In this document: one piece after another, positions 37,182 to 42,559 of the stretch
How the letters are laid out: every line of letters starts with the position of its first letter
Numbering within the stretch: position 1 is the first letter of the stretch
NCBI RefSeq assembly: GCF_012184425.1
Contig: NZ_VTOW01000001.1
Location: 1,178,001-1,242,000 of the forward strand
Reading direction: 5' to 3'
Origin: Candidatus Manganitrophus noduliformans
GTDB lineage: Bacteria > Nitrospirota > Nitrospiria > SBBL01 > Manganitrophaceae
Length of the DNA stretch: 64,000 bases
The notes under the pieces: model-generated
Databases searched by the model: none
The model's input: the letters and a program-made list of their open reading frames with translations, nothing else
What the model was told of the DNA's origin: nothing
Made by a program: the position numbers and the translations under genes

Positions 37182-37523
37182 ATGGAGCCGTTGACGGAGT
37201 TACAGGGAGAATTGAATCACGTCGCCTGTCCGCAGTGCCAAAAATCGAGATTTGATCTCTCTCTTCGATGCGAGCTGGGTCCCGGAGAGTGCCTTTACAC
37301 GGCGACCTGTCTTCACTGCGGTTACGCGTTCGAGGTCAGCACGGAGACAAGGGATCTTCGCAAGACGAACCCGGACCTTGAAAATCATCTTTCGAGCACG
37401 CGCTGCCCATATTGTGAAAAGGTGGGGGCGCACCTTCGGTTCCGATGTGATCTGGGCAAACGGGCCTGTCTCTACGTCGCCACTTGCAATCATTGTGGCG
37501 TGGTCTCTCATCAGTACCGTTGA
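37182..37523 (+). CDS. tandem zinc-ribbon protein
   Basis: A 113-residue protein made of two similar halves. The first has CPQCQKSRFDLSLRCELG and CLYTATCLHCGY; the second has CPYCEKVGAHLRFRCDLG and CLYVATCNHCGV. Each half carries CPxC and CxxCG pairs, so two zinc sites are expected. This is a clear internal duplication. A GGGAGGAAG site precedes the ATG. Function unknown. Confidence 0.75.
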   Translation: MEPLTELQGELNHVACPQCQKSRFDLSLRCELGPGECLYTATCLHCGYAFEVSTETRDLRKTNPDLENHLSSTRCPYCEKVGAHLRFRCDLGKRACLYVATCNHCGVVSHQYR

Positions 37524-38546: not shown

Positions 38547-38960
38547 TCATCCGAACATTCCCTCCAACCATTTCTTAATTTCATCCCTGATCCGTCTGAA
38601 GTCGGATAGACTTTCCGCGCCGGTCGATGGGGCGGGATCGTCAAAGGACTGATGGAGGATGACCTTCCCTCCCGGAAAGGAGGGACAGACCCCTTTCGCG
38701 CGATCGCAAACCGTCACGACATAATCGAATTTCATCCCCTGAAATTCATCAAGGTTTTTGGATCGGTGTTGGGAGAGATTGATCCCGACCTCCGCCATGA
38801 TCTGAATCGCGCGGGGATCGACGCGAGAGGGCGCGGTTCCCGCGCTGAACGCTTCATATCGGTCGCAGTAAAGAAAGTTCACCCACCCTTCCGCCATCTG
38901 AGAGCGGGCCGAGTTGTGTGTGCAGACGAACAATATCCGCTTCCGTTCTGACCGGGTCAT
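38547..38960 (-). CDS. arsC: arsenate reductase / low-molecular-weight phosphatase family
   Basis: A 137-residue protein with the P-loop CTHNSARS (residues 13-20), the DRAKGVCP segment near residue 86 and Cys residues at 85 and 91 in VTVCDRAKGVCPSFPGG. This is the thioredoxin-linked ArsC/LMW-PTP group, which reduces arsenate to arsenite. The ATG at 38960 overlaps the PiT gene by four bases. It is the last gene of the arsenic-type operon and would supply the arsenite substrate to the fusion enzyme upstream. Confidence 0.92.
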   Translation of the reverse strand: MTRSERKRILFVCTHNSARSQMAEGWVNFLYCDRYEAFSAGTAPSRVDPRAIQIMAEVGINLSQHRSKNLDEFQGMKFDYVVTVCDRAKGVCPSFPGGKVILHQSFDDPAPSTGAESLSDFRRIRDEIKKWLEGMFG

Positions 38961-40051
38961 AAAAAGGTCTCCAGTATGCCATAAAGCACCGCTCCCAGCA
39001 GCGCCGCCAAGGGAAGGGTGATTCCCCAGGAGAGAAGGATCTGACCGACCAATCTCCAATCGGTTCTGTTCCGGTGGAGAAGGCCGATGCCGAAGAGACT
39101 TCCGCAGGAGACATGGGTGGTCGAGACCGGCATTCCGACATGGGAGGCACCGGCGACGAGAAGTGCTGTGATCAGGTTGGCCGAGAACCCCTGAACCGGG
39201 TCCATCGGCGTGATTCGCTCCGAGAGGATCCGGGAGATGCGGCGCGCCCCCAGCATCCCTCCGACCGCCATCGCCAGGGCAATCCCTCCGATGGCCCATC
39301 CCTTCGTCGGCCCGAAGCCGATCCCCAGAAGGAGGGCGGCGATCTTCGGCGTGTCGTTCAATCCCCGCGAGAAGCTCATCAGCCCCGCCGACAGCCAGTG
39401 GATTCCGTTCAACGGAGTAAACCGATCCGCACCGGCGACCGATCGGCATTCCGCCGCCGTCCCGATCACGATCTCGGCCGGCGGCGCGGATTGTGACTGT
39501 GCAAGGGCCTGTTCCGAGACGATGACCGGCTCCCTGCGGACTAGGCAGATACAGCTTTCGGCGAAACGGCGAAGGGGCCGGAGAAAAGAGAAGAGCAACA
39601 GCGTCAGACCCAGGGAGAGAAGGGGGCTTACGAGGAGGGGGAGGACGATCCCCTTCCCGAGTGTCTCAATCCGAAGCGGCCCGATCCCGAACGCCGCAGC
39701 GCCCGTCCCGATGAGCGCGCCGGTCAGTGCGTGGGTGGTGGAGATCGGGGCGCCGATTCTGGAAGCAAACAGGACGGTTCCTCCCGAAGCGAGTCCGACC
39801 GTAAGGAGGAGATCGGGTCGGCCGATCTCCTCGGCGGGTAGAAGCCCATTTCCGTTAAAGAGAGCGATCAGTTTGGTGCCGATCTGCGCGGAGAGGAGCG
39901 CGCCGAAGAAGGTCCAGAAGGTTCCCCAGAGGATCGCAACGGTGTCGGAAGCCAATCCGCTCCCCCGCAGCGTCGCCACCCCTTTGGCGTTGTCGTTGGC
40001 ACCGTTGGCGAAGGCGAGCAGCAGAACCGTGATCCAGAGTGCTGTCGTCAT
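38957..40051 (-). CDS. pit: PiT-family inorganic phosphate transporter
   Basis: A 364-residue membrane protein with about ten helices. The two PiT repeats are visible: FANGANDNAKGVATL near residue 14, SRGLNDTPKIAALLL near residue 223, and GAPISTTHALTGALIG and GMPVSTTHVSCGSLFG in the two halves. The family imports phosphate, and arsenate is a well-known alternative substrate. In an operon with arsC and an arsenite methyltransferase fusion, arsenate import is a reasonable inference. Confidence 0.93.
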   Translation of the reverse strand: MTTALWITVLLLAFANGANDNAKGVATLRGSGLASDTVAILWGTFWTFFGALLSAQIGTKLIALFNGNGLLPAEEIGRPDLLLTVGLASGGTVLFASRIGAPISTTHALTGALIGTGAAAFGIGPLRIETLGKGIVLPLLVSPLLSLGLTLLLFSFLRPLRRFAESCICLVRREPVIVSEQALAQSQSAPPAEIVIGTAAECRSVAGADRFTPLNGIHWLSAGLMSFSRGLNDTPKIAALLLGIGFGPTKGWAIGGIALAMAVGGMLGARRISRILSERITPMDPVQGFSANLITALLVAGASHVGMPVSTTHVSCGSLFGIGLLHRNRTDWRLVGQILLSWGITLPLAALLGAVLYGILETFL

Positions 40052-40060
40052 ACGTCCCTC

Positions 40061-42559
40061 CTAGCAGCACTGTCCCGGAGGACAGCAGGTCTCTTCTTCA
40101 GCAGAGGCCGATATTGAAACGGTCTGATCGCCTCCTTTCCCCTCGATGACGGCGAACGATCCGGCATAAGGCGGCTGCTTGAGCTTGGCGGCGGTGTCGG
40201 TGCAGACCTCGACCGGCTGATTGCGCGGGAAGAGATGCCCCTCCTCGTCGATCACCGCCTGCATCGGCCCGAGATAGATCGCCTCCTGACCGACGTAGTT
40301 GCAACCGCGCTTCTTCTCGTACTTGAATCCGCGGATCACCACCGAGTAGAATCGGTATCCCTCCACCTCCTTCCAGAGGTTTTTCTTGATCACGGCCATC
40401 CCGTAGAATCCAGCCTCCTCCAGGCGGGAGAGATACTCCGCTTCGGTCAGCGCCCCGGAGACGCACTCTCCCCAAAGCCGGGGATTCGCCTTCATCCCCG
40501 GCGGCACCGGCCGCTCCGCGACGGTGTCGGAGACGACGATCCGGCCGAAATCTTTCAGGACCCGCCACATCTCGACGAAGACCTGCCTCTTGTCGGGGGA
40601 GAGGTTGATCACGCAGTTGGAGGTGATGACATCGGAGAACCGGTCGGGGAGGGGGATCTCTTCAAGGTAACCTTTTCGGAATTCGACGACGTCGTATCCG
40701 AGGTTCAGGGCGACCGTTTTGTTCGCCTCGCGGGCCTTCTCCAGCATCGCATCGGTCATATCGATCCCGACGACCTTTCCCTGCCGGCCGACCTTCTTGG
40801 CGGCGATGAAGCAGTCGATTCCGCCCCCCGATCCGAGATCGACCATCGTCTCCCCCGCAGCAATCCCGGCCAGGCCGACGGGGCTGCCGCAGCCGTAAGC
40901 GATCTCCAAGACCTCCTTCGGAATGTGGGAGGAATCTTCCTGCGGGTATCCTCCGGGACAGCAGAGGGCGGGTTGGGGTGTTTCCGCCGCGGCACCGTAG
41001 AAATCGCTGACCACCCGTCGCGAATGATCGAGATCAACCGATAAGACGCAGGCCGAGCGGGAGAGAGCGACTTCGAAACCGCCGATGGCCCGCGCGCCTT
41101 GATCCTGCGCTTCTTCCAACACCCCCTCCCCCATGGTGGCAAAGAGGATCGGGCGATCGTATCCGGAGGGGATCTTCTTCCGGCTTCGTTTTTCGGCATG
41201 GGAAAAGAGGGTCTGGATGATCCACTCCTCGTAGAATTCGGAGAAGGGATCTTCTCCCAGAAATCGGCCGCTGTAGAGGACACTGTGTTCAAGGTCCCCG
41301 CCGCCACAGAGATATTTGAGATAGCAATCTTTGCATCGCGCCTTCTTCTGAACGGTCGCGCTCCGAATCTGGCGGGCCACTTGTGATTCTCTCCAGATTG
41401 TCTCAAGCGGTTGATCGGAGAGGCTTCCCATCCGGAAGGGGGGGAGGCCGGCCAAGGCCGCGGAGGGATAGACTGCGCCGTCAGCATAAACGCAAAGCGA
41501 TTCGTAAGCGGCATTGGAGAGATCGCGCTTCACCCCCGGCCGCCCCAGTAGCCTGCTCTTGAGCGCATCGAGATTGTCGAATCGAATTCCGGCCTGCTCG
41601 GTGGCCGCTTCGACGTTCTGGAAGGCCGTCAGCAGCTCGGCATTCGAGGGGGAGGCCAGCGAGTCCGATCCGATCGACCTTCCCCGATGGTGGCTGAGGA
41701 GCAGATGGATATTTTTGATCCCGAGCGAGGCGGCGAGCGGAACCATCTCCGTAAGGAGCGTAACGTTTGAGCGAGTCACCACGGTCGTCAGCGTCGGCGA
41801 AAAGCCGATCCCGATCACCTCCTTGATCCCGTGCAGCGCGGCGTCGAACGTCCCCTTCCCCCGGATCGGGTCGTTCACCTCCGCCGTCGGACCGTCGAGA
41901 CTAACCTGGAGGGTGATTCGAGTCCGATCAAATTCAGACAGCCGTTTGAGTTTTTCTCCTCTGAGGAGCATCGCATTCGTCAGGATGATCAGCTCCGCTT
42001 CGCGGGTGATCCGCCCGATCAACTCGAAGAGGTCGGACCGTAGGAAAGGCTCGCCGCCGGTAATGTAAAATCGGCTCACCCCCAGGTCGCGCGCCTGATC
42101 GATCGTCCGGATCCAGAAGTCGGTTTCCGCTCCGGGGATCCCGCTCGGAGACGAGTTGACCAGGCAGTGGGCGCAGGAGAGATTGCAGGCATTGGTCACG
42201 TGGAGCCAGAGTTCGGAGAGACGGTCGAGTTCGAGGGCTTCGGGCCGGCCCGGATAGGGGGCGCGGACAAACGGGAGGGTGGAAAGAAAGCCGCTTCGGA
42301 GGGCATTCCCCAAAAAAGTATGGCAGTGAAGCCATCCCTTGGCCCAATCCACTTGAACGGTGCGGCAATAGTTGGAGACGATCTCGCCGAAGCTCCGTCT
42401 GCCGTCCAACTCGCCGATGATCCTTGCGCCGCGTTGATCGGTAATGATCCAGTGCGGCGCCTCCGGGTCGATCAGAAGGACCCGCTCGCCTCTTTCCACC
42501 TCGCGATAGATCGGTGCAAAAAGCCGGCTCGTTTCATGAAGAGATATCTCGTTCGACAC
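40061..42559 (-). CDS. PqqD-like / radical SAM-SPASM / arsenite methyltransferase fusion
   Basis: An 832-residue fusion. Residues about 5-95 look like a PqqD-type domain (LDGRRSFGEIV). Residues 115-330 form a radical SAM domain with C125-x3-C129-x2-C132 in ACNLSCAHC and the ITGGEPF strand. A SPASM-like part follows, with Cys at 356, 409, 412 and 418 (CKDCYLKYLCGGG). Residues about 530-745 are an ArsM-type methyltransferase: VDLGSGGGID, GIDMTDAML, SNCVINLSPDK and ECVSGALTE. The As-binding cysteines of known ArsM enzymes have counterparts at C533/C534, C557, C649 and C699. The protein ends with a Cys-rich TCCPPGQCC. It differs from separate ArsS/ArsM or ArsL/ArsM pairs. It is followed by pit and arsC nine bases later, so an arsenate-to-organoarsenical route is inferred. 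The product is unknown. Confidence 0.85.
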   Translation of the reverse strand: MSNEISLHETSRLFAPIYREVERGERVLLIDPEAPHWIITDQRGARIIGELDGRRSFGEIVSNYCRTVQVDWAKGWLHCHTFLGNALRSGFLSTLPFVRAPYPGRPEALELDRLSELWLHVTNACNLSCAHCLVNSSPSGIPGAETDFWIRTIDQARDLGVSRFYITGGEPFLRSDLFELIGRITREAELIILTNAMLLRGEKLKRLSEFDRTRITLQVSLDGPTAEVNDPIRGKGTFDAALHGIKEVIGIGFSPTLTTVVTRSNVTLLTEMVPLAASLGIKNIHLLLSHHRGRSIGSDSLASPSNAELLTAFQNVEAATEQAGIRFDNLDALKSRLLGRPGVKRDLSNAAYESLCVYADGAVYPSAALAGLPPFRMGSLSDQPLETIWRESQVARQIRSATVQKKARCKDCYLKYLCGGGDLEHSVLYSGRFLGEDPFSEFYEEWIIQTLFSHAEKRSRKKIPSGYDRPILFATMGEGVLEEAQDQGARAIGGFEVALSRSACVLSVDLDHSRRVVSDFYGAAAETPQPALCCPGGYPQEDSSHIPKEVLEIAYGCGSPVGLAGIAAGETMVDLGSGGGIDCFIAAKKVGRQGKVVGIDMTDAMLEKAREANKTVALNLGYDVVEFRKGYLEEIPLPDRFSDVITSNCVINLSPDKRQVFVEMWRVLKDFGRIVVSDTVAERPVPPGMKANPRLWGECVSGALTEAEYLSRLEEAGFYGMAVIKKNLWKEVEGYRFYSVVIRGFKYEKKRGCNYVGQEAIYLGPMQAVIDEEGHLFPRNQPVEVCTDTAAKLKQPPYAGSFAVIEGKGGDQTVSISASAEEETCCPPGQCC

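Follow-up and report, generated by a model that had tools for sequence, protein, structure and literature searches.

What does a protein do in which a radical SAM enzyme and an arsenite methyltransferase are joined in one chain? The question is raised by a locus of Candidatus Manganitrophus noduliformans, where such a fusion is encoded immediately ahead of genes for a PiT transporter and an arsenate reductase, within a window of 64,000 nucleotides (the whole stretch of DNA that was analyzed). We favor, with about an even chance of being right, the reading that the fusion is a two-headed organoarsenical synthase, a non-orthologous substitute for ArsM plus ArsS, including the product predicted below. 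The features of the locus, in window positions, are the following.

40061..42559, minus strand: RRE-radical SAM-SPASM-ArsM fusion gene, 832 aa, a single open frame
42275..42529, minus strand: RRE/PqqD-fold domain, residues 11-95, a structural match, not an HMM match
41780..42199, minus strand: radical SAM domain, residues 121-260, CX3CX2C formed by C125/C129/C132 (Pfam, E 1e-19)
41321..41506, minus strand: SPASM domain, residues 352-413 (Pfam PF13186, 28.9 bits against a cut-off of 21.5)
41048..41050, minus strand: linker cysteine C504, motif S/H-x-C-V-L, in all fusions spanning it except the radical SAM-less L010
40064..41032, minus strand: ArsM-type arsenite methyltransferase half, residues 510-832, with C533/C534, C557, C649 and C699
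40064..40087, minus strand: C-terminal tail CCPPGQCC, the final CC kept in most fusions
38957..40051, minus strand: PiT (PHO4) transporter, 364 aa (PF01384, 215 bits, above cut-off)
38547..38960, minus strand: thioredoxin-type arsenate reductase ArsC, 137 aa, its start within the PiT stop codon
46436..47215, plus strand: Crp/Fnr-type regulator, 3.9 kb from the fusion, its tie to the operon uncertain

Domain architecture and the operon

The fusion gene runs from a GTG start at 42559, preceded by AGGAGG, to a stop at 40061. An earlier note on this DNA had described an 832-residue protein with a radical SAM site, auxiliary-cluster cysteines, an ArsM part and a CC-rich tail, and this description held, with one frame and with Pfam and phmmer matches. 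The SPASM cysteines are C356, C409, C412 and C418, the last just past the domain end, and a class I methyltransferase domain was placed by Pfam at residues 568-717. In the NCBIfam scan the top rank went to the arsenite methyltransferase model NF008823, at 235.5 bits and under its cut-off of 263. A phmmer search against the PDB matched the ArsM half to 5evj (E 7e-39), and the cysteines that the note had proposed as arsenic binding have counterparts at aligned positions in solved ArsM structures. The whole fusion was modeled with AlphaFold2 at a mean pLDDT of 82, and the C-terminal part matched the ArsM fold (6cx6, Z 28.7). This half thus shares fold and conserved cysteines with CmArsM, CrArsM and human AS3MT which, unlike the fusion, are standalone enzymes.

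The N-terminal domain had been called PqqD-like, and here the fold stood while the family match did not. The PqqD HMM (PF05402) gave no match to the fusion at E 1, nor to the genome at E 0.001. Nevertheless, the N-terminal 112 residues modeled alone (pLDDT 88, with the RRE domain itself at about 95) resembled the lasso-peptide RRE TbiB1 (5v1v, Z 10.1) and PqqD (5sxy, Z 10.0), with a three-stranded sheet and three helices, so that the domain is predicted, by structure alone, to be an RRE/PqqD fold. Residues 16-458 of the fusion model resembled the sactisynthase CteB (5wgg, Z 28.2) and residues 11-473 resembled TigE (8vpo, Z 25.4), both matches spanning the N-terminal domain.

None of the NCBIfam radical SAM equivalogs came near its cut-off. 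The ArsS model TIGR04167 scored 63.6 bits against 300, matching the generic radical SAM core alone, and Pfam found no DUF3641, a domain of ArsS, in the fusion. Judged by sequence, the fusion is not a member of ArsS, and its radical SAM half has no family-level homology to ArsS, the nearest relatives being RiPP and cofactor maturases. The arsinothricin ArsM model scored 188 against a cut-off of 500. Membership of ArsL is defined by an NF040542 score above cut-off or by an RCCLKC-type tail, and NF040542 lay outside the best 25 of 117 families in the scan.

The tight operon with PiT and arsC was confirmed, with a gap of 9 bp between the fusion and PiT and an overlap of 4 bp (ATGA) between PiT and arsC. 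ArsC carries a CX5R motif (C13 to R19) and a CX6C motif (C85, C92), and TIGR02691 was its best-scoring family, although at 113 bits it was under the cut-off of 174. From what is generally known of PiT proteins, the operon PiT may import arsenate; it was the sole PHO4 gene found in the genome. Conservation of these neighbors, as the note had raised, applied in part. The order fusion-PiT-arsC recurred in that it was found in two genomes, but it is not universal, and PiT adjoins the fusion in three genomes with five copies, namely that of the window, G023 (three copies) and G028. In G028 the order extends to fusion-PiT-arsC-VTT, with a TIGR04283 glycosyltransferase gene upstream. In six related genomes, homologues of the Crp/Fnr regulator lie next to the fusion in divergent orientation.

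The window also contains, at 37182-37523, a 113-aa open reading frame with two tandem four-cysteine, zinc-ribbon-like motifs (CPxC...CxxCG). Elsewhere, the genome encodes a separate standalone ArsM as well as a separate ArsS (L112, G000:C1:1672000-1688000), the latter about 5 kb from a VTT-DUF3047 fusion protein and an FAD disulfide oxidoreductase; no SBF-family match, which would indicate ACR3 efflux, was found in the genome.

Conservation and partners across the family

In an even sample of Nitrospirota, the fusion was present in 39 of 396 genomes. Full-length homologues with the same domain order, whose existence the note had proposed to check, occur in many genomes, and the fusion is therefore not a chance joining. 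Across the order and class they share 46-71% identity, a homologue from an Acidobacteriota MAG shares 46%, and those of Desulfobacterota, including two Candidatus Electrothrix, share 33-39% and carry a C-terminal DUF5714 domain. The Desulfobacterota copies (L002-L009) have a CC-rich linker, and their DUF5714 has conserved HGPEHH and GxCGAAxG motifs; no mention of DUF5714 was found in the literature searched.

Across phyla, wherever a fusion reads through the radical SAM segment, the CX3CX2C cysteines are there, one genome gap being read as X, and the radical SAM site is therefore under selection. This conservation argues against plain arsenic methylation or detoxification with an accessory or inactive radical SAM part. 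Such a reading would fit the arsenic-binding cysteines, all kept in the ArsM half, and the arsC gene in the operon. Nevertheless, the genome of the window has its standalone ArsM, and one family (f17, below) keeps the radical SAM protein as a gene of its own, and we consider plain methylation very unlikely.

Other positions vary more. Of the SPASM cysteines, C409, C412 and C418 are gone in several Nitrospirota and in all Desulfobacterota copies, and some relatives are without three or four of the set. C533/C534 are absent from the Desulfobacterota fusions, in which the RRE helices are also mostly lost. This last loss bears on a RiPP system, in which the RRE would bind a leader, the radical SAM/SPASM part would crosslink or modify a cysteine-containing peptide and the ArsM half would methylate or arsenylate it. 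The RRE fold (Z 10) and the best structural relatives of the radical SAM/SPASM part, CteB, SuiB and TigE, are what such a system would have, and these maturases share with the fusion the fold and order of its N-terminal 460 residues. They differ from it in that the fusion is joined to ArsM, has variable SPASM cysteines and has no precursor nearby. We compared 466 small open reading frames near 35 fusion loci, and the sole conserved product was a thioredoxin-like protein of 82-98 aa at six loci; no conserved short or cysteine-rich precursor gene, and no recurring protease or exporter, was seen. The peptide substrate that the note had considered possible thus lost ground, and a RiPP system seems to us very unlikely. 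The thioredoxin-like gene (L080, L085, L092, L093, L095 and L096) adjoins the divergent Crp/Fnr regulator in four of its six loci.

The linker cysteine is illuminated by two unusual forms of the family. The genome GW715_bin.13 (Candidatus Manganitrophaceae), which shares its genus with that of the window, has a copy (L010:2698-3723, G002:C102) in which the frame passes from the RRE directly to residue 415, and it also has ArsS. This copy is without the radical SAM domain and most of SPASM, and C504, otherwise invariant, is Gly. The joint loss, read from the sequence of a single MAG contig, ties C504 to a predicted radical SAM function; since only one contig is involved, the deletion may be a misassembly. 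In family f17 (G071, G080, G088; L126-L131), each half has a gene of its own, and the two genes lie on different contigs. The RRE-radical SAM protein (480-482 aa) has the C504 motif, as HCSCVL(T/S)V, at its very end, and the linker therefore belongs to the radical SAM half. Its gene adjoins a TIGR04282 glycosyltransferase in two of the three genomes, while in all three the genes after ArsM encode first a VTT membrane protein and then a TIGR04283 glycosyltransferase. "Arsenosugar biosynthesis glycosyltransferase" is the NCBI annotation name for both models, TIGR04282 being graded a hypothetical equivalog.

Other partners were found elsewhere. In f36, f43 and f45 (L138-L156), whose fusions have an N-terminal CC motif and are without the C-terminal ArsM extension, a B12-binding radical SAM gene follows on the same strand after 50-182 bp at all 19 loci with downstream sequence. 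Its product has 493-495 aa and comes closest to the NCBIfam models BchE and HpnJ, but reaches the cut-off of no equivalog. Genes for an FAD disulfide oxidoreductase and DUF3047 adjoin the fusion in L071, L079 and L081. DUF3047 was rejected as a specific marker: it occurs in 54 of the 58 genomes of the class, and its mere presence therefore tells little.

Relationship to ArsM and ArsS of Nitrospira

The ArsM halves of the fusions and eight ArsM proteins of Nitrospira form one clade (support 100/99), apart from other ArsMs in a midpoint-rooted tree. The closest standalone ArsM in Nitrospira is encoded directly upstream of ArsS, an assignment supported by TIGR04167 at 446 bits against the cut-off of 300, and this ArsS-linked ArsM likewise falls under the NF008823 cut-off (233.8 bits). 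PiT is the gene immediately after ArsS in nine Nitrospira genomes, and it is of the same lower-scoring type (about 200-235 bits) as the PiT after the fusion. The clade, the ArsM-ArsS synteny and the common PiT type all argue for the fusion as a substitute for ArsM plus ArsS.

The distribution within the class Nitrospiria points in the same direction. Of its 58 genomes, 20 have the fusion without ArsS (a count that includes some fusions broken at contig ends) and 33 have ArsS without the fusion; two have both and three neither. By genus the counts are 14, 8, 1 and 1, with a Fisher p of 1e-4 that treats as independent genera that are not. The pattern is phylogenetically structured, which weighs against the substitution; at family level the switch between fusion and ArsS occurred several times, within f9, within f10 and among families of the order. 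Beyond the phylum sample, the 11 fusion-related genomes to which L001-L009, L011 and L027 belong yielded no ArsS, the last two loci being cut by contig ends. The deleted copy in L010, with its Gly at position 504, also fits, as it occurs in an ArsS-bearing genome.

The fusion-only genomes of the class retain the glycosyltransferases, TIGR04283 in 20/20 and TIGR04282 in 17/20, and f17 has them beside its separate halves. Among 14 control genomes, just one had matches to the two models, and this one had ArsS as well. Since TIGR04283 is present in 57 of the 58 genomes of the class, it is a weak profile marker, and TIGR04282 is missing from all three genomes with neither enzyme (p 6e-4, for a tiny group of which two are incomplete). 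The glycosyltransferase names, moreover, come from NCBI annotation. With the synteny, the near-exclusion and the kept glycosyltransferases, the note's idea of arsenic chemistry built on ArsM plus a radical SAM enzyme gained support; the organic group would be attached in a separate step.

A strict replacement of ArsS throughout the phylum was rejected: in the other Nitrospirota classes ArsS accompanies the fusion in 11 of 22 genomes, as it does in the genome of the window. Half of these sister-class genomes having ArsS and the B12-binding radical SAM gene being constant, another product is therefore possible there. The radical SAM half would then add a group other than 5'-deoxyadenosyl, to be elaborated by partners such as the B12-binding enzyme in f36 or DUF5714 in Desulfobacterota. 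The ArsS alongside the fusion, the 19/19 B12-binding genes, the DUF5714 extension and the different radical SAM subfamily agree with a different organoarsenical, while in Nitrospiria the synteny, near-exclusion and kept glycosyltransferases point to the ArsS product; overall we regard it as rather unlikely. In a related and still doubtful form, the fusion would be a third, independently evolved C-As-forming radical SAM class (RRE-SPASM, joined to ArsM) with products unlike arsenosugars or arsinothricin, processed by the B12-binding enzyme in other Nitrospirota or by DUF5714 in Desulfobacterota, including cable bacteria.

Proposed function and comparison with known systems

The domains, the conserved cysteines, the operon, the synteny and the distribution were observed, whereas the substrate, the order of steps, the transferred group, a role for the RRE and the direction of PiT are what we infer. 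Arsenate would enter the cell, PiT being a plausible route if it works inward, and would be reduced to arsenite by ArsC. The anatomy of the protein suggests methylation followed by radical transfer of a SAM-derived group. The ArsM half would methylate As(III) with SAM, and the radical SAM/SPASM half would add a second SAM-derived group to the trivalent methylarsenical. For this group 5'-deoxyadenosyl, the one that ArsS transfers, is most likely; in the class of the window, adenosyl is favored by a locus and genome context that match those of ArsS. The linker cysteine (CxCVL/ACVL) and the CC tail may hold the arsenical between the sites as arsenic ligands, and the resulting arsenosugar precursor would be used by TIGR04283/TIGR04282 glycosyltransferases, whose genes lie at other places in the genome. 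In Nitrospiria, the fusion probably does the work of ArsM plus ArsS. Against this stand a radical SAM half closest to RiPP and cofactor maturases and not to the ArsS family, an RRE fold without an obvious arsenosugar role, and the variable SPASM and C533/C534 cysteines.

In the literature found, two radical SAM enzymes have been shown to form C-As bonds, ArsS and ArsL (PMC12159101). ArsS adenosylates arsenic in oxo-arsenosugar biosynthesis (PMC12159101), and ArsL transfers a 3-amino-3-carboxypropyl group (PMC12159101; PMC8552651). The arsenosugar system (TIGR04167) resembles the fusion in that ArsM is paired with a radical SAM enzyme, in that the ArsM halves are sister groups and, in places, in its PiT, VTT/DUF3047/FAD-oxidoreductase and AhpD-type neighbors; it differs in that ArsS is a separate protein with DUF3641, whereas the radical SAM part of the fusion is of the RRE-SPASM type and joined to ArsM. 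The arsinothricin system of Burkholderia gladioli likewise combines a radical SAM enzyme with ArsM and two kinds of C-As bonds, but ArsL, a protein of its own with 428 aa, has three conserved cysteines at 194-201 and no reported SPASM (PMC8552651). That system also has the ArsQ permease, which was not seen with the fusion. No description of a radical SAM-ArsM fusion was found in the open-access literature, which was the scope covered (subscription papers lay outside it), and the kind of radical enzyme in the fusion is one not previously tied to arsenic.

The presence of the fusion where ArsS is missing in one class suggests an independently evolved route to arsenic-carbon bonds. If the proposed function is true, the fusion would represent a third C-As-forming radical SAM lineage, on a scaffold that elsewhere serves peptides and cofactors, and organoarsenical synthesis would extend to Nitrospirota, Acidobacteriota and relatives of cable bacteria. 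The single chain, moreover, makes the hand-over between two SAM chemistries directly testable.
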